Source: an uncultured Ignavibacteria bacterium | GTDB taxonomy: Bacteria; Bacteroidota; Ignavibacteria; Kapaibacteriales; UBA2268 | Assembly: GCA_903862655.1 (NCBI GenBank) | Contig: CAIOZA010000044.1 | Location: 1 to 64,000, forward strand | Direction of reading: 5' to 3' | Length of the DNA stretch: 64,000 nucleotides | Part shown: piece after piece, positions 37,618 through 59,416 of the stretch | Layout: the number at the start of each line of letters is the position of its first letter | Numbering within the stretch: the stretch's first letter is position 1 | Program-made: the position numbers and the translations under genes | The notes under the pieces: model-generated | What the model was told of the DNA's origin: nothing | Seen by the model: only the letters and a program-made list of their open reading frames with translations | Databases searched by the model: none

Positions 37618-37864
37618 AATAGGGTAAATCGACAGAGGAAAATGTCTGGAGATAAAACTCTATTCACAGGAAGTGAAAACGTAAAAAAAATAAATGTTCT
37701 TTGATTACAGCAGGAGGTTTTGGTATAAACATTTATCCCAAGATCACGGATGACTTAAGGATTTCATGGACGATATCCCCTGGTATCAAAACCACTGCTA
37801 AATCAATCATGTGCAAGGATGCATGTACAGGAAAGGATTCCCTGTTTTTTTTAGGAGTATTTTA
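37618..37864 (+). promoter_or_regulatory. Structured leader of the flagellar operon
   Basis: It includes a possible 20-codon leader peptide at 37642-37704 (MSGDKTLFTGSENVKKINVL) with AGAGGA in front of it, a hairpin region around GATATC...GGTATC, and finally a terminator-like hairpin immediately before the flgF ribosome binding site. No known riboswitch class was recognised (not GEMM, cobalamin or SAM). Confidence 0.4.
37827..37852 (+). terminator. Attenuator-like hairpin before flgF
   Basis: ACAGGAA pairs with TTCCCTGT (one bulged C) around AGGA and is followed by eight T residues. The flgF ribosome binding site AGGAG comes directly after. In this position it could act as an attenuator controlling entry into the operon. 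Confidence 0.45.
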
Positions 37865-38650
37865 ATGCTTAAAGAACTTTATACCGCGGCAATGGGAATG
37901 GTACCTCAACAAACTAGGCTTGAGGTTACTGCAAATAACATTGCCAATTCGAACACTACAGGATTCAAACGTGAATCTGTTTTTGAGAGAAATTTGATCG
38001 ATGCTCAGAATCATTTCTTTAACGCTCCTGGGAGCGCGCAACAGAATGATCCACCGGTTGGTTCCTACACTGTGTTCGATAAAGGCGGCTATCAACAGAC
38101 CGGCAATACACTGGATGTGGCAATTGAAAATGAGAAAGGATTCTTTCTGGTCGAAACTGCAGATGGTACTCAAAATCTTACTCGTGCAGGAAATTTTACC
38201 ATCAATAACGAAGGAGATCTACTGTCATCAGATGGATCTTATGTTATGGGAACTGAAGGTAAAATTAATGTTAAGAGTCAGTTCAACGACAGTTTAAATG
38301 ATGTATCAGATTCGAAGAGTATGGACATCAAGATTACTCCAAATGGAGAGATTTATGCAAATCAGCTATATTCGGGAACGATTCAGATTGTTTCAGTAAA
38401 CAATTTGAATTCATTGAATAGGATTTCCAGTTCTAATTTTAGTCCAACGGAGGACACGATAGCTGAATTTGCACCTATGGAAGAAGCACAAATGCGCCAG
38501 GGATGGCTAGAAGGCTCGAATGTTGACGTAATCAAGGAAATGGTTGAGATGATAAATCTCCAGCGTCAATTCGAGATAGGCAGTAAGGTTATTACAACAA
38601 ACAATGAAACATTAGACACCAGCTTGAGATTAGGAAGAATTCAAGCTTAA
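37865..38650 (+). CDS. flgF: Flagellar basal-body rod protein FlgF
   Basis: 261 residues from the ATG at 37865, with AGGAG seven bases upstream; a longer frame back to 37811 runs through the hairpin and is rejected. It has the flagellar rod/hook N-terminal signature (LEVTANNIANSNTTGFKRE) and the C-terminal helix (NVDVIKEMVEMINLQRQFE). As the first of two adjacent FlgF/FlgG homologues, and the more diverged, it is called proximal rod FlgF. First gene of the operon. Confidence 0.9.
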   Translation: MLKELYTAAMGMVPQQTRLEVTANNIANSNTTGFKRESVFERNLIDAQNHFFNAPGSAQQNDPPVGSYTVFDKGGYQQTGNTLDVAIENEKGFFLVETADGTQNLTRAGNFTINNEGDLLSSDGSYVMGTEGKINVKSQFNDSLNDVSDSKSMDIKITPNGEIYANQLYSGTIQIVSVNNLNSLNRISSSNFSPTEDTIAEFAPMEEAQMRQGWLEGSNVDVIKEMVEMINLQRQFEIGSKVITTNNETLDTSLRLGRIQA

Positions 38651-38672
38651 TTTATCTTAGGATGAGATTATT

Positions 38673-39461
38673 ATGGATAAAACTCTCAGAACAGCCGCGA
38701 CAGGTCTTGCTTCACAGCAGAGATTCGTCGAAATAATTGCAAACAACATTTCGAATGTCAATACAACTTCCTACAAGAAGGTAAGACCCGAATTTCAGGA
38801 TTTACTCTACGAAACTCTTCATCCTGCCGGCAATACCCAAAAGCTTAGCGGACCACCTCTTAATGAAGTGCAGATAGGTTCTGGTACTGAATTAGCCGCA
38901 ACAACCAAAATGTTCAAACAAGGCGACATCAAAGAAACGGGAAACAAGCTTGACCTCGCTATTAATGGCGATGGTTTCTTTGTCGTTACTAAAGCTGACA
39001 ATTCTTTTGGTTATACCCGCGACGGTGCTTTCCAGGTTGACAGAGATGGCAATATTGTTACATCACAGGGTTTCAAGCTTGAACCGGGATTAACTGTTCC
39101 CGCTGATGCGATTGACGTTTCCATAAGCCGTGACGGTATTGTTCGTGCAGTTCTGGATGGCGGAACCACCGAACAGGTGCTAGGTCAGATTCAGCTTGCA
39201 CGTTTCATCAATCCCGCTGGTTTGAGAAATGTCGGCCAGAATATGTATCAGGAAACACCGGCTTCCGGTCCTATGGTCATGGAACAAGCAGGAGTCAATA
39301 ACACTGGTGAATTAGTTCAGAACAACCTGGAGCAGTCAAATGTTGACATCGTTGAAGAAATGGTTAATATGATTATGGCACAGAGAGCTTATGAATTGAA
39401 TTCGAAATCAGTTCAAACTGCTGATAGTATTATAATGACTGCAGTTAACCTTAAGAGATAG
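38673..39461 (+). CDS. flgG: Flagellar distal rod protein FlgG
   Basis: 262 residues, the normal FlgG length. N-terminal IIANNISNVNTTSYKKVRPEFQDLLYE (quoted in part), the D1 segment LDLAINGDGFFVV and the C-terminal QSNVDIVEEMVNMIMAQRAYE are all characteristic. It forms the distal rod that crosses the peptidoglycan and outer membrane. It is 22 bases behind flgF and 8 bases ahead of flgA. Confidence 0.96.
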   Translation: MDKTLRTAATGLASQQRFVEIIANNISNVNTTSYKKVRPEFQDLLYETLHPAGNTQKLSGPPLNEVQIGSGTELAATTKMFKQGDIKETGNKLDLAINGDGFFVVTKADNSFGYTRDGAFQVDRDGNIVTSQGFKLEPGLTVPADAIDVSISRDGIVRAVLDGGTTEQVLGQIQLARFINPAGLRNVGQNMYQETPASGPMVMEQAGVNNTGELVQNNLEQSNVDIVEEMVNMIMAQRAYELNSKSVQTADSIIMTAVNLKR

Positions 39462-39469
39462 GAAATTGA

Positions 39470-40174
39470 TTGAATAAGTTATCTACCATATTAGGAATTA
39501 TCTTTTTTGTACTGATTGCATCGGTTAATCTAACCTTTGCCAAATCTACATTTTCGGGTGACAGGCTTCGTGAAGCTTGTCTGGAATACATTCAATCTGT
39601 TGTAAACGAAGACAGCGAGATCAATGTTAGCGGTAATATTCAGCCGGTCGAATTTGCTGATGATGATGTAACTGCTCAGTGTGCATCCTCAGCCGGTTCA
39701 CTTCGCGGAAATTGTTACATTACAATTGAATTTCTGAAAGATTCCAAATTAATAAGAAGAATGAACGTACCAGTTCAGGTTAAAATTTTCGCGCTGGTTC
39801 CAGTAGCTGTTACTAATATTAAGAGTGGCGGAGCATTCACAGAAAATAATATCAAAATTGAAAGAAAAGAAGTAACTAATATCAAAAGCGATGATGTTAT
39901 CACTCAGAATTACGCCTTTGGCCTGTTTACTAAGAGAAATGTTAATATTGGAATGATAATTACAAAATCTATGCTTGATATGGGCTTTGGGATTAAACGA
40001 GGTGAGAAAGTCGTTATCGTTGCAGTATCCGGTGCAATTTCTGTCAAATCAATGGGAGTAGCTCTCAATGATGCGGAAGTTGGACAGGATATTAGAGTTA
40101 AGCGTGACGGTATTAATACTGTATTGAATGGAACGGTATCAGAAAATAAATTCGTGATAATTAAACTAAATTAA
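39470..40174 (+). CDS. flgA: Flagellar P-ring assembly chaperone FlgA
   Basis: 234 residues. A TTG start is chosen because AGGA precedes it by six bases and it gives a clean signal peptide (LSTILGIIFFVLIASVNLTFA). The C-terminal SAF-like domain has the FlgA pattern VAVTNIKSGGAFTENNIKIE, then IGMIITKSMLD and VKSMGVALNDAEVGQDIRVK (in part). It is a periplasmic chaperone for FlgI, which is encoded two genes downstream. Confidence 0.9.
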   Translation: MNKLSTILGIIFFVLIASVNLTFAKSTFSGDRLREACLEYIQSVVNEDSEINVSGNIQPVEFADDDVTAQCASSAGSLRGNCYITIEFLKDSKLIRRMNVPVQVKIFALVPVAVTNIKSGGAFTENNIKIERKEVTNIKSDDVITQNYAFGLFTKRNVNIGMIITKSMLDMGFGIKRGEKVVIVAVSGAISVKSMGVALNDAEVGQDIRVKRDGINTVLNGTVSENKFVIIKLN

Positions 40175-40185
40175 TTTCTAGAAAA

Positions 40186-40779
40186 ATGAAAAATTTCAGA
40201 ATCATATACACTACTCTTCTTGTTATCGGACTCCTATCTAATGGAGCTTTTGAACTGAATGCACAGTTTATGCAGAATAGTTCAAGATCGCTTTTTTCGG
40301 ATGTGAAAGCTTTCAAGACCGGTGATGCTATTATGGTGCTGATAACTGAAGATACTCAGGCGGGTAACGAAGCATCGACAGCAGATTCTCGTTCTACGAC
40401 TCTGGGCGGTAGTTTTTCCGGTGGAGTAGGAGCAAATAGTGTAAAGGCTGATGGAAGTATCGGTACAACCAATGACTTTAAAGGTACCGGAAGTACTCAG
40501 AGAAAAGAATCAATAAGATCTAAACTTAGTGCCAGAGTTGTTGCTTTTGACAGTACCAGTGGTAACCTGGTGATTGAAGGAAAAAGAACAACAAAGATAA
40601 ATGGCGAAACACAAACGATAGTAATTAAGGGAATAGTCAGACCTGTTGACGTTATGTCCAACAACTCTGTTTATTCTTATTCAATACTTGATCTGACTTT
40701 GCTGATTGAGGGTGACGGAACTGTTTCGAAAGTACAGGAACCGGGTTTAATCACTAAATTCCTGAGAATGCTATTCTAA
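40186..40779 (+). CDS. flgH: Flagellar L-ring protein FlgH
   Basis: 197 residues, a little shorter than proteobacterial FlgH. It contains LFSDVKAFKTGDAIMVLITEDTQAGNEA (in part) and IVIKGIVRPVDVMSNNSVYS, typical of FlgH. The signal peptide ends AFELNAQF with no cysteine lipobox, so unlike E. coli FlgH this one does not look like a lipoprotein. It builds the outer-membrane ring. Its stop codon overlaps the flgI start by one base. Confidence 0.92.
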   Translation: MKNFRIIYTTLLVIGLLSNGAFELNAQFMQNSSRSLFSDVKAFKTGDAIMVLITEDTQAGNEASTADSRSTTLGGSFSGGVGANSVKADGSIGTTNDFKGTGSTQRKESIRSKLSARVVAFDSTSGNLVIEGKRTTKINGETQTIVIKGIVRPVDVMSNNSVYSYSILDLTLLIEGDGTVSKVQEPGLITKFLRMLF

Positions 40780-41918
40780 TGATAAGATTATTAAAAATAT
40801 CAAAATTCAATCTCATTACGATATTATTTATAATGTCAGCAATGACTGTGAATGTATATTCAGCAAGAATTAAAGATATTGCAACAATAGAAGGCAACTC
40901 TTCAAGCCAGGTAATCGGTTATGGACTTGTTACGGGATTGACCAATACTGGTGACAATCAAATGTCATCATTCGCTGTTCAATCTGTATCAAACATGCTC
41001 AAAAGATTTGGATTAGCAACTCTTCAGACTAATCCAAGAATCAGAAATGTTGCAGCAGTTATGATCACTGCCTCTATTCCAGCTTCCACAAAAAAAGGTT
41101 CCAAAATTGACGTTCAGATATCTTCAATAGGCGACGCAACGTCGCTTCAGGGTGGCGTTTTGTTATTAAGTCCGATATCGACAGCTGATGGTAAAATTAT
41201 TGGGATGGCACAGGGAGCTCTTTCTGTCGGTGGTTATGACGTTGGAGCTTATGGTTCGAGAGTTATGAAGAATGTTACTACCACAGGCAGAGTACCCAAT
41301 GGGTTACTCATCGAGATAGAATTCACTTCTCAATATATCAATAACAAACAAATCAGAATAAATCTCAGAGAACCTGATTTTACAACAGCTTCAAGAATTT
41401 CTGCGGCTGTAAATGCTCTTCCCGGTCTTGCAAACTCCGCAGAAGCACAAGATGCTTCTACAGTGAAGGTTACAATGCCAGCTACCCAGAACCAGGATCA
41501 GTTGATTCAGACAATATCTCAGATTGAAACACAAAATATAATTGCTGATCCCTCAGCAAAAATAGTGATAAATGAAAGAACAGGAACAGTAGTAGTAGGT
41601 GGGAATGTTCAGCTATTGCCTGCAGTTATAGCTCACGGTGGTTTAGAGATTTCTATACAGAAACAGGTCATTTTACCTTATCCGCCGCCACCATTTACAA
41701 TCAATTACAGAGCATCCAAACCGGTTGAAGTGGCAACTATTCAGGCACAGGAACAAACCAACCCTGCTATTGCATTTGATATAAAGAATGCAAAGCCAAC
41801 AGTACAGGATATAGCAGCTGCATTGAATGCTCTCAAGGTATCGCCAAGGGATCTTATTTCGATTTTTCAGGCTCTAAAGGAATCAGGAGCTTTGCAGGGT
41901 GAGTTAATCATTCAATAG
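40779..41918 (+). CDS. flgI: Flagellar P-ring protein FlgI
   Basis: 379 residues with a signal peptide ending NVYSAR. Signatures include IKDIATIEG, QVIGYGLVTGLTNTGDN, KKGSKIDVQISSIGDATSLQGG (in part), and the C-terminal TVQDIAAALNALKVSPRDLI and IFQALKESGAL. It forms the periplasmic ring around the rod in the peptidoglycan layer, which marks a Gram-negative flagellum. Translationally coupled to flgH (TAATG). Confidence 0.97.
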   Translation: MIRLLKISKFNLITILFIMSAMTVNVYSARIKDIATIEGNSSSQVIGYGLVTGLTNTGDNQMSSFAVQSVSNMLKRFGLATLQTNPRIRNVAAVMITASIPASTKKGSKIDVQISSIGDATSLQGGVLLLSPISTADGKIIGMAQGALSVGGYDVGAYGSRVMKNVTTTGRVPNGLLIEIEFTSQYINNKQIRINLREPDFTTASRISAAVNALPGLANSAEAQDASTVKVTMPATQNQDQLIQTISQIETQNIIADPSAKIVINERTGTVVVGGNVQLLPAVIAHGGLEISIQKQVILPYPPPPFTINYRASKPVEVATIQAQEQTNPAIAFDIKNAKPTVQDIAAALNALKVSPRDLISIFQALKESGALQGELIIQ

Positions 41919-41924
41919 GGTGAA

Positions 41925-42380
41925 ATGAAAATGGACTTATTTAATACAAACTTAGAGAAAACAAGTACTGCAAACTCAGTTAATGAATCGAGAATGCAAG
42001 TGATGAAGGGACTCCAGAATGCGATAAAATCGACTGAAGGAGCACCAATGGACGAAGCCCGAAGGAAAGAAATAGAGAAAGCAGCGCGTGGATTTGAATC
42101 TATCATGGTTAACCAGATGATTAAAGACATGAAAAAAGCCATGCTTGAGAAAAAGAAAGAAGGCAGTGAGGGTGGAGAAAATAGTTTCGGTGGTGATACC
42201 CTCCTTGATTATACCGATATGATGGTTTCTGATCATATATCAAAAACTGGAAACGGAATTGGAATAGCAAGTAAAATCTATGAGCAAATGACTGGTGGAG
42301 AAAAATTGAAACAAATTACATCTGCTTATAGCACAATTTATAATTTTGATCATTCAGATAAGGGTGAAGATGATGAATAG
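41925..42380 (+). CDS. Flagellar rod-binding protein (FlgJ N-terminal type)
   Basis: 151 residues corresponding to the rod-binding half of FlgJ: EKAARGFESIMVNQMIKDMKK, DTLLDYTDMMVSDHIS and GNGIGIASKIYEQM. The C-terminal glucosaminidase domain found in gammaproteobacteria is absent, so peptidoglycan cutting must be done by another enzyme. The central part is highly charged. ATG at 41925 is used; 41931 is possible. It overlaps the next gene by 11 bases. Confidence 0.88.
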   Translation: MKMDLFNTNLEKTSTANSVNESRMQVMKGLQNAIKSTEGAPMDEARRKEIEKAARGFESIMVNQMIKDMKKAMLEKKKEGSEGGENSFGGDTLLDYTDMMVSDHISKTGNGIGIASKIYEQMTGGEKLKQITSAYSTIYNFDHSDKGEDDE

Positions 42381-42810
42381 CACTCTGATTAAATATTTAG
42401 AATTCGAAAAAGGTCTGCTGGAAGCTCTTGTGGATCTCGGCGAAAAGCAAAAACAAGCTTTGGTTAAGTATGATATGCACACTTTGGAGAGTATATCGAT
42501 TAAGCAGGCTCAAATTCAGAAAGAAATCCGCCAGGTTGAAGAACAGAGAATTCATCTGCTATCTACATGGCTTGGCGTTAAGAGAACAGACGCAATGAAG
42601 TTAAAACTCAGCGATCTGGCAGCATTGCATAAGGGGGAAGAGGAAGCAACATTGATGGTGCTCAGAAAAGATTTTAAATCTCTTTTGAAGATAATTCAAG
42701 CGCAATACGCATTGAATAGAGTACTATCTACCAGAGCCAAAAATGGTATCAGTGAGATATTGTTCTTTCTGACCAATGGCTCCAACCACGTGTGTAATGT
42801 TCAAATATAG
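42370..42810 (+). CDS. flgN: FlgN-like flagellar secretion chaperone
   Basis: 146 residues from the first of two adjacent ATG codons that overlap the end of the previous gene. It is all helical, starting LIKYLEFEKGLLEALVDLGEKQ (in part) with a long heptad-rich middle (IKQAQIQKEIRQVEEQRIHLL), as in FlgN, the chaperone that escorts FlgK and FlgL to the export gate. flgK and flgL lie downstream, which supports the call. Sequence similarity alone is modest. Confidence 0.72.
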   Translation: MMNSTLIKYLEFEKGLLEALVDLGEKQKQALVKYDMHTLESISIKQAQIQKEIRQVEEQRIHLLSTWLGVKRTDAMKLKLSDLAALHKGEEEATLMVLRKDFKSLLKIIQAQYALNRVLSTRAKNGISEILFFLTNGSNHVCNVQI

Positions 42811-42823
42811 TCAGATTATTAAA

Positions 42824-43201
42824 ATGTCAAAAAAAATAGAAAGTTTGAAAATGCAAATCAAAGACAAGGCAGCAGAATTAATAACAAATGTTTATAATCT
42901 AAGCGACAATTTGCCTGACAATGATTTCCTGCTGATTAGGGATATGCTCCTGTCATCGGTAGAAACTGTGCCCGATCACATTGAAAAAGGCTACAAGGTT
43001 GATGCAAATGCTGTCAAAGTGAAATACTTGATTAAAGTATTTCAGTCCTTATCAGAGTGCAAAAACTATCTTCGTCTAGTGCAAACTTTGAATTATGCAG
43101 AAACAGAACATATTGTTGAAAAGGTCAATGAGATTGTTGAATTGATTATTAAAGACTTTCCATCGAAAGTAACTTTTAGCATGGTTTACGAAAATAATTA
43201 A
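42824..43201 (+). CDS. S23-type four-helix bundle protein in the flagellar operon
   Basis: 125 residues from the ATG at 42824; a longer frame overlaps flgN. The helix pattern and the motif VPDHIEKGYKVDANAVKV, then LSECKNYLRLVQTLNYAE, follow the four-helix bundle family first found in 23S rRNA intervening sequences (usual form IPxNIAEGYGR, then SLAELExxLxLAxxLGY). Its function is generally unknown. Placement between flgN and flgK, with 13 bases to flgK, suggests a flagellar assembly or chaperone-like role, which is an inference. Confidence 0.7.
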   Translation: MSKKIESLKMQIKDKAAELITNVYNLSDNLPDNDFLLIRDMLLSSVETVPDHIEKGYKVDANAVKVKYLIKVFQSLSECKNYLRLVQTLNYAETEHIVEKVNEIVELIIKDFPSKVTFSMVYENN

Positions 43202-43213
43202 TAATAAAAAAAA

Positions 43214-44656
43214 ATGAGTAGTTTCAGCACACTGGAAATCGGTAAGAGAGCACTTATAGCTCAAAGATTGGGACTCGATGTTACTAGTAATAATGTTGCT
43301 AATGTAAATACTCCCGGGTTTTCGAGACGGCAGATAGCTTTATCCGAAACAGCACCTACGATGACTCCAAGCGGTTATATGGGAACAGGAACTGTCATGG
43401 ACAAACTTCGCTCATTCAGAGAAGAGTTTTTTGATAAGGAAATTAGGAAGAATATCTCTAGAAATCAGGGTTTTGGTACTGATGGAAAAATCATGAAACA
43501 AATCGAAGGAATAATGAATGAACCAAATGGAACAACAATTGGCAATGCTGTTAGTGATTTTTTCAACTCTTTCGAAGATATTTCAGTAAGACCACAGGAC
43601 ATCTCTCTCAGAAGAAATTTAATTGATAAAGCTAAGACTTTGGTGGATTATTTTCATAACCTGTCGAGTGGTATGAAGGATATGCGTTCTAATATCTTAA
43701 GTGACATGAAAAATAATGTTACAACTGCTAATGGTCTAATCGAACAAATTGCAACATTAAATAATAAAATCGCTGTTTCCAAGTCACAGGGAGGTTCCGA
43801 AGCTACTACACTTATTGATCAGCGTGAGCTGTTGCTTGAAGATTTGTCAACTTTGGCAGACATCAATGTTTCTCAGGGTGAAGGCGGAATGGAAAACGTT
43901 TTCGTCAATGGAATAAATGTTATAACTGGAAAAGATTTCACAAAACTTCAAGTCGTTGAGAAGGCAGATTCCACGACTGGTGAAAAATCGGTCAGTTTGT
44001 ATAATCTCCAGCCGGACGGTACTCCGCTCTATGCTCTCAATCCTCAGTCCGGTGAGATTGCCAGCCAAATGAAGCATTTTAATGTAACTCTTGACGGTGA
44101 AGATTCATCTGGTGGATACTCAATGATGAAAACGCTTGACAACTTCGCTAATTCTTTTGTCCAAAGAGTTAATGCAATCACTGTCACTGGGTTTGGCTTG
44201 AATGATGCTGGACCTCTTCCCCCAGGTAGAAGCTTCTTCACCCCAATTACCGGAACAGCAAATGCAAGTAATATTGAAATTTCATCCGATATTCTGAATA
44301 CACCCGAAAACATCCCTTTATCGGATACTCTGAATGAACCAGGAAATAACAAGATAGCACTGTTAATCTCTGCTCTGTCGCAAGATACTACTTTTGCTTC
44401 CAGTATGACACCATCAGGGTATTATGCTTCAATGGTTGGAAAGCTAGGCACAATAAGTGCTGAGGCTATCAATGGAAGCTCTACAACAACTTTAATTGCT
44501 CAGCAGCTTCAAAATCAAAGAGAGTCGGTCATTGGAGTGAATCTCGATGAGGAAGCTGTAAATCTTATTAAATATCAAAAAGCATTCGAGGCATCATCCA
44601 GAATAGTTAGCACAACGAACGAACTTCTTGGAATAATTGTAAATTTAGGAAGGTAG
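43214..44656 (+). CDS. flgK: Flagellar hook-filament junction protein FlgK
   Basis: 480 residues. The N terminus (LEIGKRALIAQRLGLDVTSN, then NVANVNTPGFSRRQI) and C terminus (VNLDEEAVNLIKYQKAFEAS, then IVSTTNELLGIIVNLGR) are diagnostic of HAP1. The middle domain (about 200-380) is variable, as usual. It joins the hook to FlgL and the filament. It is 7 bases ahead of flgL. Confidence 0.96.
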   Translation: MSSFSTLEIGKRALIAQRLGLDVTSNNVANVNTPGFSRRQIALSETAPTMTPSGYMGTGTVMDKLRSFREEFFDKEIRKNISRNQGFGTDGKIMKQIEGIMNEPNGTTIGNAVSDFFNSFEDISVRPQDISLRRNLIDKAKTLVDYFHNLSSGMKDMRSNILSDMKNNVTTANGLIEQIATLNNKIAVSKSQGGSEATTLIDQRELLLEDLSTLADINVSQGEGGMENVFVNGINVITGKDFTKLQVVEKADSTTGEKSVSLYNLQPDGTPLYALNPQSGEIASQMKHFNVTLDGEDSSGGYSMMKTLDNFANSFVQRVNAITVTGFGLNDAGPLPPGRSFFTPITGTANASNIEISSDILNTPENIPLSDTLNEPGNNKIALLISALSQDTTFASSMTPSGYYASMVGKLGTISAEAINGSSTTTLIAQQLQNQRESVIGVNLDEEAVNLIKYQKAFEASSRIVSTTNELLGIIVNLGR

Positions 44657-44663
44657 AATTTTT

Positions 44664-45656
44664 ATGAGGATTTCTCAGAATTTAATATATACTCCTTATC
44701 AGAATGATCTTCAGACGATTCAATCTGATATTTACAATGAGCAACTAAGGATGGCAACCGGCAAGAATTTGACTTCAACATCTGATGATCCAAATTCTGC
44801 TGTAAAAGTCAAGAATTATAATAATCTGATCAGTAAGAACGAGCAGTATCAGAGTAATATACTCAATACGATTAATGAACTGCAGTCAGCTCACGAATCT
44901 ATTTCCACTGTCTCTGATGATATCTATAATATCCGCAACCTTGCAATTGATGCTACTCAAGCAGGAAGTCAGCAAAGTTTGAACACTTTGTCGAACAATA
45001 TTAAAGGAGTTCTAGAAGATATTATTTCGACAATGAACCGTGATTATAACGGTATATTAGTATTTGGAGGAACAAAGACAACAATTCAGTCAATAAAAAA
45101 TGATTTCCCGACCTCTAAAGGACTTCCTTTTGAAATTATTACGAATCCACCTACAAGCACTAACCCTTCAGGGATGGAAGTTAAATTTTATGGGAACAAC
45201 AAGGAAAGAGTCGTTAATAAAGATTCCTCTGGAACAGAAGTCGTTAACATTACTGCTCAGGAAATATTTGGAACCAATGGTACTAAGATTTTTGATTCGA
45301 TCATTAATTTATACAACCTGATGAAGTACGATGCTAATGGAAATCCACGTACGAGTACTGATCCATTTAAGGGTGATGATCAGAAAAAACTTGATCAATA
45401 TCAGAAGGAAATTACTGATTTTATTGATATAATGAATCAATCTGCATCTGTTGTCGGAACAAAACTCAACAGACTTAACAATCTTTCTGAATCGATGGCT
45501 AACCAAAACACTCAACTCAAAGCCTTCCGTTCAGAATATGATGATACTGATTTTGCCCAAACATCCATGAATCTGTCCAAAGATCAGGCTGTGCTGCAAT
45601 ACTCAATGCAGGTGGGTAGTAAACTTATGAACTTGTCATTATTCAATTTCCTATAA
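44664..45656 (+). CDS. flgL: Flagellar hook-filament junction protein FlgL
   Basis: 330 residues, a flagellin-like protein. The N-terminal coiled coil (IYNEQLRMATGKNLTSTSDD) and C-terminal DDTDFAQTSMNLSKDQAVLQ, then YSMQVGSKLMNLSLFNFL match FlgL. It sits between FlgK and the filament. No flagellin gene follows, so fliC must lie elsewhere. A 95-base gap with a possible sigma-28 site separates it from motA. Confidence 0.94.
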   Translation: MRISQNLIYTPYQNDLQTIQSDIYNEQLRMATGKNLTSTSDDPNSAVKVKNYNNLISKNEQYQSNILNTINELQSAHESISTVSDDIYNIRNLAIDATQAGSQQSLNTLSNNIKGVLEDIISTMNRDYNGILVFGGTKTTIQSIKNDFPTSKGLPFEIITNPPTSTNPSGMEVKFYGNNKERVVNKDSSGTEVVNITAQEIFGTNGTKIFDSIINLYNLMKYDANGNPRTSTDPFKGDDQKKLDQYQKEITDFIDIMNQSASVVGTKLNRLNNLSESMANQNTQLKAFRSEYDDTDFAQTSMNLSKDQAVLQYSMQVGSKLMNLSLFNFL

Positions 45657-45694
45657 TCAAATTTAATAATTTTAAATATGAAAATATCCACCCT

Positions 45695-45721
45695 TCAGTT
45701 AAATATAATCATGTCGATAAA
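45695..45721 (+). promoter_or_regulatory. Possible sigma-28-type promoter of motA
   Basis: GTCGATAA at 45714-45721 matches seven of eight bases of the sigma-28 -10 element. TTCAGTTA, eleven bases upstream, is a weak -35. The motA start is 31 bases on. Confidence 0.3.
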
Positions 45722-45751
45722 GTGAATTGGTATGAGGAACAAAATTAAAGA

Positions 45752-46618
45752 ATGAGAAGCAGTACTTTATTTGGTATAATATTAGGATTTGTCGCAATCT
45801 TCGGAGCTTTCCTGTTAGAAGGAGGTCCGATCAATTCCTTATTGATGTTCCCGGCTATGCTGATTGTATTTGGTGGAACATTAGCAGCTGGTATTGCTGG
45901 GACATCCCTCGAAATTGTTTTAAAAATCCCTAAGCTAATCAAGTACACCATATTCCCTCCAACTTATGACAAGATTGAGATAATTAATCAAATTGTTGGT
46001 TTTGCTACCATTGCTCGCAAGGAAGGTCTACTTTCGATCGAATCGAAGCTTGGTAAAATTAAATATCCATTTCTTAGAAAAATCCTTACTGTGTGTATTG
46101 ATGGTGCTGATCCTGATTCTTTCCAGACTATTGTACAAAATGAATTACACTACATAAACCAGCGTCATAATCAAAACATAAATCTTTTCGTAAAATTAGG
46201 TGGTTACTCGCCTACCATGGGCATTATTGGTACTGTTATGGGCTTAATCGCAACTCTGGCAGCTGCCGGAAGTGACCCAAATGTTCTAATTCAGCACATA
46301 GCTACTGCATTTATAGCAACGATGTGGGGTATATTTATGGCGAACATCGTATGGCTCCCTATTGGCGATAAACTTAAAACATTGCATGATCAAGAAATGC
46401 AGCTCTTCCAGATGATGATTGATGGAGTTCACTCTGTCCAGATCGGAGAAACACCAACAGTCATCCGAACAAAACTAGTAAGTATTTTCCCTCTTTCTGA
46501 ACAGGAAAAAATATTAAAGGAAAATATTATAGTATATAAGCCCAGTCTCGTGAAAGTACCCGGATCCATAGGATTAAAGCCTTCTGCTTTTCCTCAACCG
46601 ACAAAAACAAATATCTGA
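45752..46618 (+). CDS. motA: Flagellar motor stator protein MotA
   Basis: 288 residues with four membrane helices. Signatures: LEGGPINSLLMFPAMLIVFG near the start, the cytoplasmic loop ARKEGLLSIE whose charged residues face FliG in the family, GGYSPTMGIIGTVMGLIATL and AFIATMWGIFMANIVWLPIG (the proline-bearing helices 3 and 4). It forms the proton or sodium channel with MotB. No motB follows; the operon ends here and a repeat island begins. Confidence 0.93.
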   Translation: MRSSTLFGIILGFVAIFGAFLLEGGPINSLLMFPAMLIVFGGTLAAGIAGTSLEIVLKIPKLIKYTIFPPTYDKIEIINQIVGFATIARKEGLLSIESKLGKIKYPFLRKILTVCIDGADPDSFQTIVQNELHYINQRHNQNINLFVKLGGYSPTMGIIGTVMGLIATLAAAGSDPNVLIQHIATAFIATMWGIFMANIVWLPIGDKLKTLHDQEMQLFQMMIDGVHSVQIGETPTVIRTKLVSIFPLSEQEKILKENIIVYKPSLVKVPGSIGLKPSAFPQPTKTNI

Positions 46619-58597: not shown

Positions 58598-58627
58598 AAA
58601 GAGGCTGTCATAAATGACAGCCTCTTT
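58598..58627. terminator. Bidirectional terminator of rpsR and the small gene at 58674
   Basis: A perfect 13-base stem, AAAGAGGCTGTCA with TGACAGCCTCTTT, around TAAA. T-rich runs follow on both strands. It sits between convergent genes. Confidence 0.9.
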
Positions 58628-58673: not shown

Positions 58674-58886
58674 TCAGACTTGTATTGATCCATCGTTCCC
58701 ATTTTTCGTATGTTCATTTGCAGACTGCTGTGCTGCATAATCCTTTGCTACATCCGATAGAATCAGAGAATCTTTCTTTGTATATGAATTAGCTGCCGCT
58801 ACTAATCTTGATTCTCTGATCTGGTTTAGCAGTAATTGATATAACTCTTCCTTTGAATCCATAGATGCAAGTTTGTCAAAAGACAT
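58674..58886 (-). CDS. Small sigma-28-linked protein, paralogue 1
   Basis: 70 residues: MSFDKLASMDSKEELYQLLL, a helical middle, then TKKDSLILSDVAKDYAAQQ. It is clearly homologous to the protein encoded at 59071-59304 in both the N terminus (MS..LA...SK) and the LS..AKD.AAQQ block. The block resembles the linker motif of FlgM and of other flagellum-related small proteins (D.V.LS..AK), which is only suggestive. A sigma-28-type promoter lies 46 bases upstream and AGGAG precedes the ATG. Predicted soluble and partly disordered. Function unknown. Confidence 0.7.
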   Translation of the reverse strand: MSFDKLASMDSKEELYQLLLNQIRESRLVAAANSYTKKDSLILSDVAKDYAAQQSANEHTKNGNDGSIQV

Positions 58887-58931
58887 TGTTTACTCCTCCC
58901 CAAAAAAGTTCAAATGTTTGTACTTTAGTAT

Positions 58932-58958
58932 TTTTCGGGTAAAAACCATCATTCTTTA
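58932..58958 (-). promoter_or_regulatory. Sigma-28 (FliA)-type promoter of paralogue 1
   Basis: On the minus strand: TAAAGAAT (58951-58958), an exactly 11-base spacer, then CCCGAAAA (58932-58939). The consensus is TAAAGTTT-N11-GCCGATAA. The start codon is 46 bases downstream. Confidence 0.6.
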
Positions 58959-59004
58959 ATTTGAGTAGCTAATGTTGGCAAGTTAATGATTGCTCATTCA
59001 AACT

Positions 59005-59048
59005 ATAACCACAAAAGACTGCCGGAAATGACAGTCTCTTGTGGTTAT
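59005..59048. terminator. Long hairpin downstream of paralogue 2
   Basis: 17-base arms (59005-59021 with 59032-59048, one mismatch), ATAACCACAA...TTGTGGTTAT with an inner AGACTG/CAGTCT. It lies just past the stop of the gene ending at 59071. There is no strong T run, so it may be a terminator or an mRNA-stabilising structure. Confidence 0.5.
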
Positions 59049-59070
59049 ATATAAGGTGATTTCACTTCAT

Positions 59071-59304
59071 TTATTTAGATAATCCGCCCTCTTTCAAGGT
59101 TGAAGTATAGGTTTCAGTTGCTTCTTCCTTTGCTTCTTGGCCCACTTGCTGCGCCGCTAAATCTTTTGCTGCCTCAGAAAGATATAATGTGTCTTTCTTC
59201 GTATTAGCACTTGATATTTCTGCTGCTTTTGCCTGTTGTGCCTGAGTATTGGTATGCTGTGTCTCAGGTTTTGAGCTCACTGTAGCTAAGCTAGATATGG
59301 ACAT
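59071..59304 (-). CDS. Small sigma-28-linked protein, paralogue 2
   Basis: 77 residues: MSISSLATVSSKPETQHTNT, a Gln/Ala-rich stretch, then TKKDTLYLSEAAKDLAAQQ and an acidic, Ser/Thr-rich tail. It is a paralogue of the protein at 58674-58886, most alike in the KKD-L-LS--AKD-AAQQ block. No signal peptide or membrane segment. GGAGG precedes the ATG. Behind a near-consensus sigma-28 promoter, so it is expected to be made late in flagellar assembly. It could be an exported flagellar factor or an anti-sigma-like regulator; both are hypotheses. Confidence 0.72.
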   Translation of the reverse strand: MSISSLATVSSKPETQHTNTQAQQAKAAEISSANTKKDTLYLSEAAKDLAAQQVGQEAKEEATETYTSTLKEGGLSK

Positions 59305-59363
59305 GCTGCTTCCTCCATAAAATTATGAATAATTGTTTAAGACTTCCGTGTCTCTAAAGTATA

Positions 59364-59390
59364 TTTTCGGCTATACTAAACTATACTTTA
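59364..59390 (-). promoter_or_regulatory. Sigma-28 (FliA)-type promoter of paralogue 2
   Basis: On the minus strand: TAAAGTAT (59383-59390), an exactly 11-base spacer, then GCCGAAAA (59364-59371). That is 14 of 16 matches to TAAAGTTT and GCCGATAA. The predicted RNA start is about 50 bases before the ATG. Confidence 0.7.
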
Positions 59391-59416
59391 GCCAATTATA
59401 AAAATAATTATAAATA

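Follow-up and report, generated by a model that had tools for sequence, protein, structure and literature searches.

Two small neighbouring genes of an uncultured Ignavibacteria bacterium, located within the 64,000-nt stretch of contig CAIOZA010000044.1 analysed here (the window), are strongly supported by their sequence context as members of the sigma-28 (FliA) regulon, with a fixed-spacing TAAAG-N14-(C/G)CCGATAA-type promoter before each gene and FliA encoded in the genome. They belong to a family, here termed group A, for which we propose, with roughly balanced chances of being right, that it comprises sigma-28-controlled small proteins exported by the flagellum and possessing an FlgM-like export half. 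A sequence-only reading of the window had suggested a new sigma-28-controlled small flagellar family, and this suggestion gained support from same-spaced promoters in many genomes, co-occurrence with flagella, the promoter of the flagellin gene and the lack of a curated family match.

The gene pair and its promoters

Gene 1 (P0002, 77 aa; 59071..59304, minus strand) has a GGAGG ribosome-binding site and homologues in 15 other genomes; gene 2 (P0001, 70 aa; 58674..58886, minus strand) is its tandem duplicate with a shortened tail and the ribosome-binding site GGGAGGAG. Both open reading frames, predicted earlier at 70 and 77 codons, are present with good Shine-Dalgarno sequences, and the common block (TKKDSLILSDVAKDYAAQQ / TKKDTLYLSEAAKDLAAQQ) and similar N termini (MSFDKLASMDSK / MSISSLATVSSK) are as had been described. 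A probable terminator, i.e., a hairpin followed by TTTT, lies downstream of gene 1 (59012..59046, minus strand; inverted repeat 59004-59049, by direct reading), and a two-way terminator-like hairpin after gene 2 (58598..58627) is common to the convergent ribosomal-protein gene. Repeat analysis yielded 71% identity over 58 nt for the two coding blocks (421-nt spacing) and 80% identity for the two hairpins (414-nt spacing). Judged from its sequence, the pair arose by tandem duplication of an entire promoter-gene-terminator unit and has since diverged. A third group A paralogue, overlooked in the earlier reading, is encoded on contig C107 of the same genome (79 or 84 aa; sigma-28 site TAAAGGATTATAAAATTTTGTCGATAG, 82 nt upstream). 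Matches of P0001 to PTB and HAD-phosphatase families were rejected as weak chance matches.

The sigma-28-type promoters, TAAAG-N14-GCCGAAAA for gene 1 (59364..59390, minus strand) and TAAAG-N14-CCCGAAAA for gene 2 (58932..58958, minus strand), start 86 and 72 nt upstream of the respective ATG, exactly where FliA-type sites had been placed before, each on the strand of its gene. Both gave a shuffle p=0.003, which is the floor of this test. The two sites share only about 6 of their 14 spacer bases, while the boxes agree save for one G/C position; hence conservation is stronger in the boxes than in the spacers, which differ as previously noted. Exact matches to TAAAG-N14-SCCGAAAA occur just twice in the complete 4,070,917-base genome, both times as the window promoters, at a chance expectation of ~0.3 sites per genome estimated from base composition. 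Allowing one mismatch returned 31 matches vs 34 for a reversed control, i.e., no genome-wide excess, so that the strong sites alone are informative. These one-mismatch counts would also fit the alternative of promoter-like sites that arose by chance or have decayed, before open reading frames that are not expressed; the conservation of the sites in other genomes, detailed below, makes this very improbable. A 14-nt inverted repeat (93%), CTAAAGTATA...TATACTTTAG, surrounds the whole gene 1 promoter (59354-59391) and is a possible operator, or only an AT-rich chance occurrence.

The genome has a flagellar system of its own. FliA is found at C119:33329-34012 with 204.8 bits, above the curated cut-off; FlhA is present, as are two filament flagellins on contigs C24 and C93, in addition to flgL in the window. 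The gene order on C24 is flagellin, FliS-like gene, fliD, FlaG-like gene, FliT-like gene and FlgM, the latter (88 or 92 aa) not noticed in the earlier reading. The C24 flagellin gene is preceded by TAAAGTTTAAGTTTAGAATACCGAAAA, starting 93 nt before the ATG; the CCGAAAA ending is unusual and common to both window genes. Unlike this gene, the second flagellin gene (G000:C93:39278-39694, L005) has no recognisable upstream sigma-28 site. The window itself contains a flagellar operon (37811..46618, plus strand; rod genes, flgA, flgH, flgI, rod-binding, FlgN-like, flgK, flgL and motA-like genes, from open reading frames and Pfam matches), which ends at about 46.6 kb and thus 12 kb from the gene pair, as stated before. 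Between its FlgN-like gene and flgK, the operon also encodes a four-helix-bundle protein of the 23S rRNA-intervening-sequence type (PF05635; 42776-43201, plus strand).

Free FliA very probably transcribes each window gene as its own short unit, a reading that the sequence supports well. Both would then be class-3 (sigma-28/FliA-dependent) genes coexpressed with the flagellum, and their expression would be late, FliA becoming free once the hook-basal body is complete.

Distribution of the family and conservation of its promoter

A profile built from four sequences of this genome was searched over 391 genomes of the class and yielded two kinds of small protein. Group A proteins have about 70-85 aa and the consensus KKDTAxISxKAKDLAAQxAGKSxQEExxES, ending in an acidic tail that is conserved rather than variable. 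Group B proteins have about 82-102 aa, contain the group A-type block followed by IxSGFYNxxEVxxKVAxxIxxE, and are encoded in the fliD-FlaG-FliT-like operon. A group A profile gave strong matches in 16 genomes (this one and 15 others) in eight genera, with E-values that are not independent, since nearly all matched sequences had trained the model. This genome has three copies, G284 has two contig-end fragments and each other genome has one; the loci are scattered, single-gene and without conserved neighbours. An alignment-based contig search returned eight loci in Bacteroidetes/Ignavibacteriae MAGs, and a single-sequence search over the phylum retrieved the paralogues of this genome only. There was no strong match among the other sampled members of this genome's own family, no family covering group A in sequence searches of Pfam, NCBIfam, PHROGs and PDB, and no match in a plasmid tblastn search. 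A weak match in G539, within a 453-aa frame, looks unrelated.

We also observed a second small family, A7, in f6 genomes (L064, L090, L092, L094, L095; RDPPVTKxxLxRAQQ...ISDKAKALAVKMAEKA), which has the group A-type block within a different body; several of its members have sigma-28-like sites 87-91 nt upstream. The G348 member fits A7 better than group A proper; moving it would reduce group A to 15 genomes and leaves the conclusions as they were.

Because the family had been recruited without the use of upstream DNA, its upstream regions could be scored independently against the textbook sigma-28 consensus, with weights of our own. The best scores of 17 regions averaged 15.38 of a maximum of 17.9, vs 11.66 in dinucleotide shuffles, the largest shuffle mean over 300 sets being 12.51. 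The boxes were separated by 15 nt in 15 of the 17 members and in none at each of the 15 other separations from 8 to 23, a count made with a looser box pattern that was picked after the sites had been seen. Weaker sites exist: genus g18 has TCAAG as -35 and GTCGATAT as -10, and G311 and G496 are without a good -35. Nevertheless, exact sites and spacing are kept before homologues in eight genera while the spacer sequences have diverged, and the protein is conserved across families, both of which argue against chance sites before unexpressed frames. A motif scan upstream of fliC, which the sequence-only reading had proposed as a check, found the same sigma-28 element on the filament flagellin genes of most examined group A genomes, including this one; on their FlgL-type genes the element was not found. 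Separately, FlgM genes of families f6/f11 (L049, L051, L057, L058, L063, L097) have a TAAA[CG]-N14-xTCGATA- or xACGATA-like site at -125 to -129, within the preceding FliT-like gene. This site may be a class-3 promoter of flgM internal to the operon, or it may simply reflect conservation of the coding sequence.

Group A co-occurs with flagella. FlhA was found in 170 of the 391 sampled genomes and in 15 of the 16 with group A (Fisher p=5.5e-5 with genomes as units; with genera as units p=0.002, the fairer figure because the genomes are related). The single FlhA-less genome, G284 (90% complete), encodes a flagellin with TAAAGTTCAGTAAGACAATTCCGATAC upstream and is therefore very probably flagellate with a gap. 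Homologues are thus not equally common in genomes without fliA or flagella, the finding that had been named beforehand as one that would speak against the family. Most FlhA-positive genomes in the sample are without group A, which makes it accessory. The presence of group A without FliA in f6/f11 was considered and rejected, as a shortened FliA adjoins flhA there (G438:C27:551890-552432, L111; equivalents in G406, G409, G415, G375, G473, G348, G314 and G360). At only about 190-215 aa, this FliA aligns with the FliA model at its two ends; most of the part around positions 75-125 (sigma region 3) is missing or cannot be recognised.

Relation to FlgM and possible fate of the proteins

Nine of the 11 group B members matched the model of FlgM, the anti-sigma-28 factor (PF04316 / TIGR03824), with best E-values of 2.9e-7 and 4.6e-9, and the group B profile matched Aquifex FlgM 1rp3_B (E 0.00023); group B is therefore FlgM. 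Comparison of the group A and group B profiles gave a probability of 94 over the first 55-58 columns, ending where the C-terminal part of FlgM begins. Since group B had been recruited by a mixed profile, with possible bias, we repeated the comparison with a second set, eight FlgMs identified from their gene order, and obtained a probability of 83 (E 8e-6) over 37 columns with the block at their centre; FlaG as a control gave a probability of 0.2. Single sequences stay below the cut-off standard: the curated FlgM model scored 12 bits on P0002 vs a cut-off of 40.75, and the best E-value among group A sequences was 0.05. The C-terminal GFY..EV..KVA..I segment is absent from all group A proteins and present in the FlgMs of the class. 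Because the match stops before this part, group A has the front half of FlgM without the sigma-binding half. Thus, the resemblance to FlgM seen earlier in the LS..AK block holds for the first half and not for FlgM proper.

The two also share their size, a start of the form M-x-I-x-S-[IVL], the sigma-28 setting and an Asp-x-x-x-[LI]-S-x-x-A-K-x-L block in the same relative place. They differ in genomic organisation: FlgM belongs to a fliD-fliT-flgM operon (fliC-fliS-fliD-fliT-flgM in the inspected genomes), whereas group A is monocistronic and scattered, and the two are separate genes in this genome, G213, G259, G280, G348, G406, G409, G415 and G438. Group A is likely homologous to the first half of FlgM, a signal that is short and of low complexity; conceivably, the block is instead a common export or chaperone motif of independent origin.

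A group A protein would consist of a disordered start, the LS..AKDLAAQ block and an acidic tail. For P0002, AlphaFold predicted a low-confidence helix after an unstructured start, likewise of low confidence (pLDDT 57, too weak for a fold search). Start and block would be the counterpart of the first half of FlgM, which carries the export signal in studied bacteria. The N termini of FlgM and FspA drive export via the flagellar type III system in Campylobacter (PMC2764114), where Fed/Cia proteins are secreted by the flagellum and dispensable for motility (PMC12445086). Because the FlgM N terminus directs export in another bacterium, where several coexpressed proteins without a motility role also take this way out, group A proteins may pass through the flagellar type III export gate as late substrates and be released outside or to the filament; we regard their leaving via this gate as about an even call. 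Missing the C terminus that grips sigma-28, they would not be expected to inhibit FliA. After export they could have an extracellular role, or they could tune the export of FlgM through competition for the gate or for FliS; we suggest these roles only tentatively.

A specific form of this export reading is that group A proteins are accessory factors working outside the cell, e.g., in adhesion, filament decoration or signalling, with the FlgM-like part serving as an export tag only. The patchy spread over scattered single-gene loci, the duplication and divergence within this genome and the A7 family, in which the block, and at times the promoter as well, occurs with a different body, are consistent with it. 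However, these very small proteins have no recognisable effector or adhesion domain and their acidic tail is not variable, leaving this form rather doubtful.

Alternatively, the proteins may be kept in the cell as accessory regulators, with the LS..AK helix contacting FliA, FliS or FlhA; as part of a feedback loop they would then adjust the expression of late genes, serving as decoys or weak anti-sigma factors. FlgM sequences align with the block, among them the sigma-28-complexed Aquifex chain 1rp3_B, whose alignment with the FlgM profile runs through DKVTLSKIAQEL. Moreover, FliS binds FlgM in Salmonella and Yersinia (reviewed in PMC8306008), and an inhibitor under sigma-28 would yield negative feedback. 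Against this stand the missing C-terminal segment and, for a core regulator, the triple occurrence in this genome together with the absence from most of its flagellated relatives; we consider retention in the cell somewhat unlikely. A further reading, in which an FlgM-derived family kept the export half, lost the sigma-binding half, is produced only while FliA is free and rivals FlgM at the gate, thus slowing or timing late flagellar gene expression as a secreted factor, appears quite unlikely.

Known systems and biological meaning

Small accessory proteins that depend on sigma-28 and are linked to the flagellum form a known kind. The Campylobacter Fed, Cia and FspA proteins resemble group A, under the export reading preferred here, as flagellar-coexpressed accessory genes outside the motility core with predicted flagellar export, and group A resembles Fed in being restricted to flagellates and dispensable for having flagella. 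They differ in that group A shows no sign of a host-directed role and does not match FspA significantly in sequence; weak matches to NF041454 (FspA) came from two FlgM members (E 0.0045). FlaG and YjfB-type small motility proteins are also small and coexpressed with the filament, but the profile comparison with local FlaG was negative. Within the open-access literature, the group A family and its FlgM-half architecture appear undescribed.

The late flagellar regulon of the Ignavibacteria type is little studied, and the family provides a conserved and testable set of small genes within it, together with a lineage-specific promoter consensus common to flagellin and group A. It would represent a natural case of the FlgM export half without its sigma-binding half, and the LS..AK block may serve as a marker for further small proteins exported by the flagellum.
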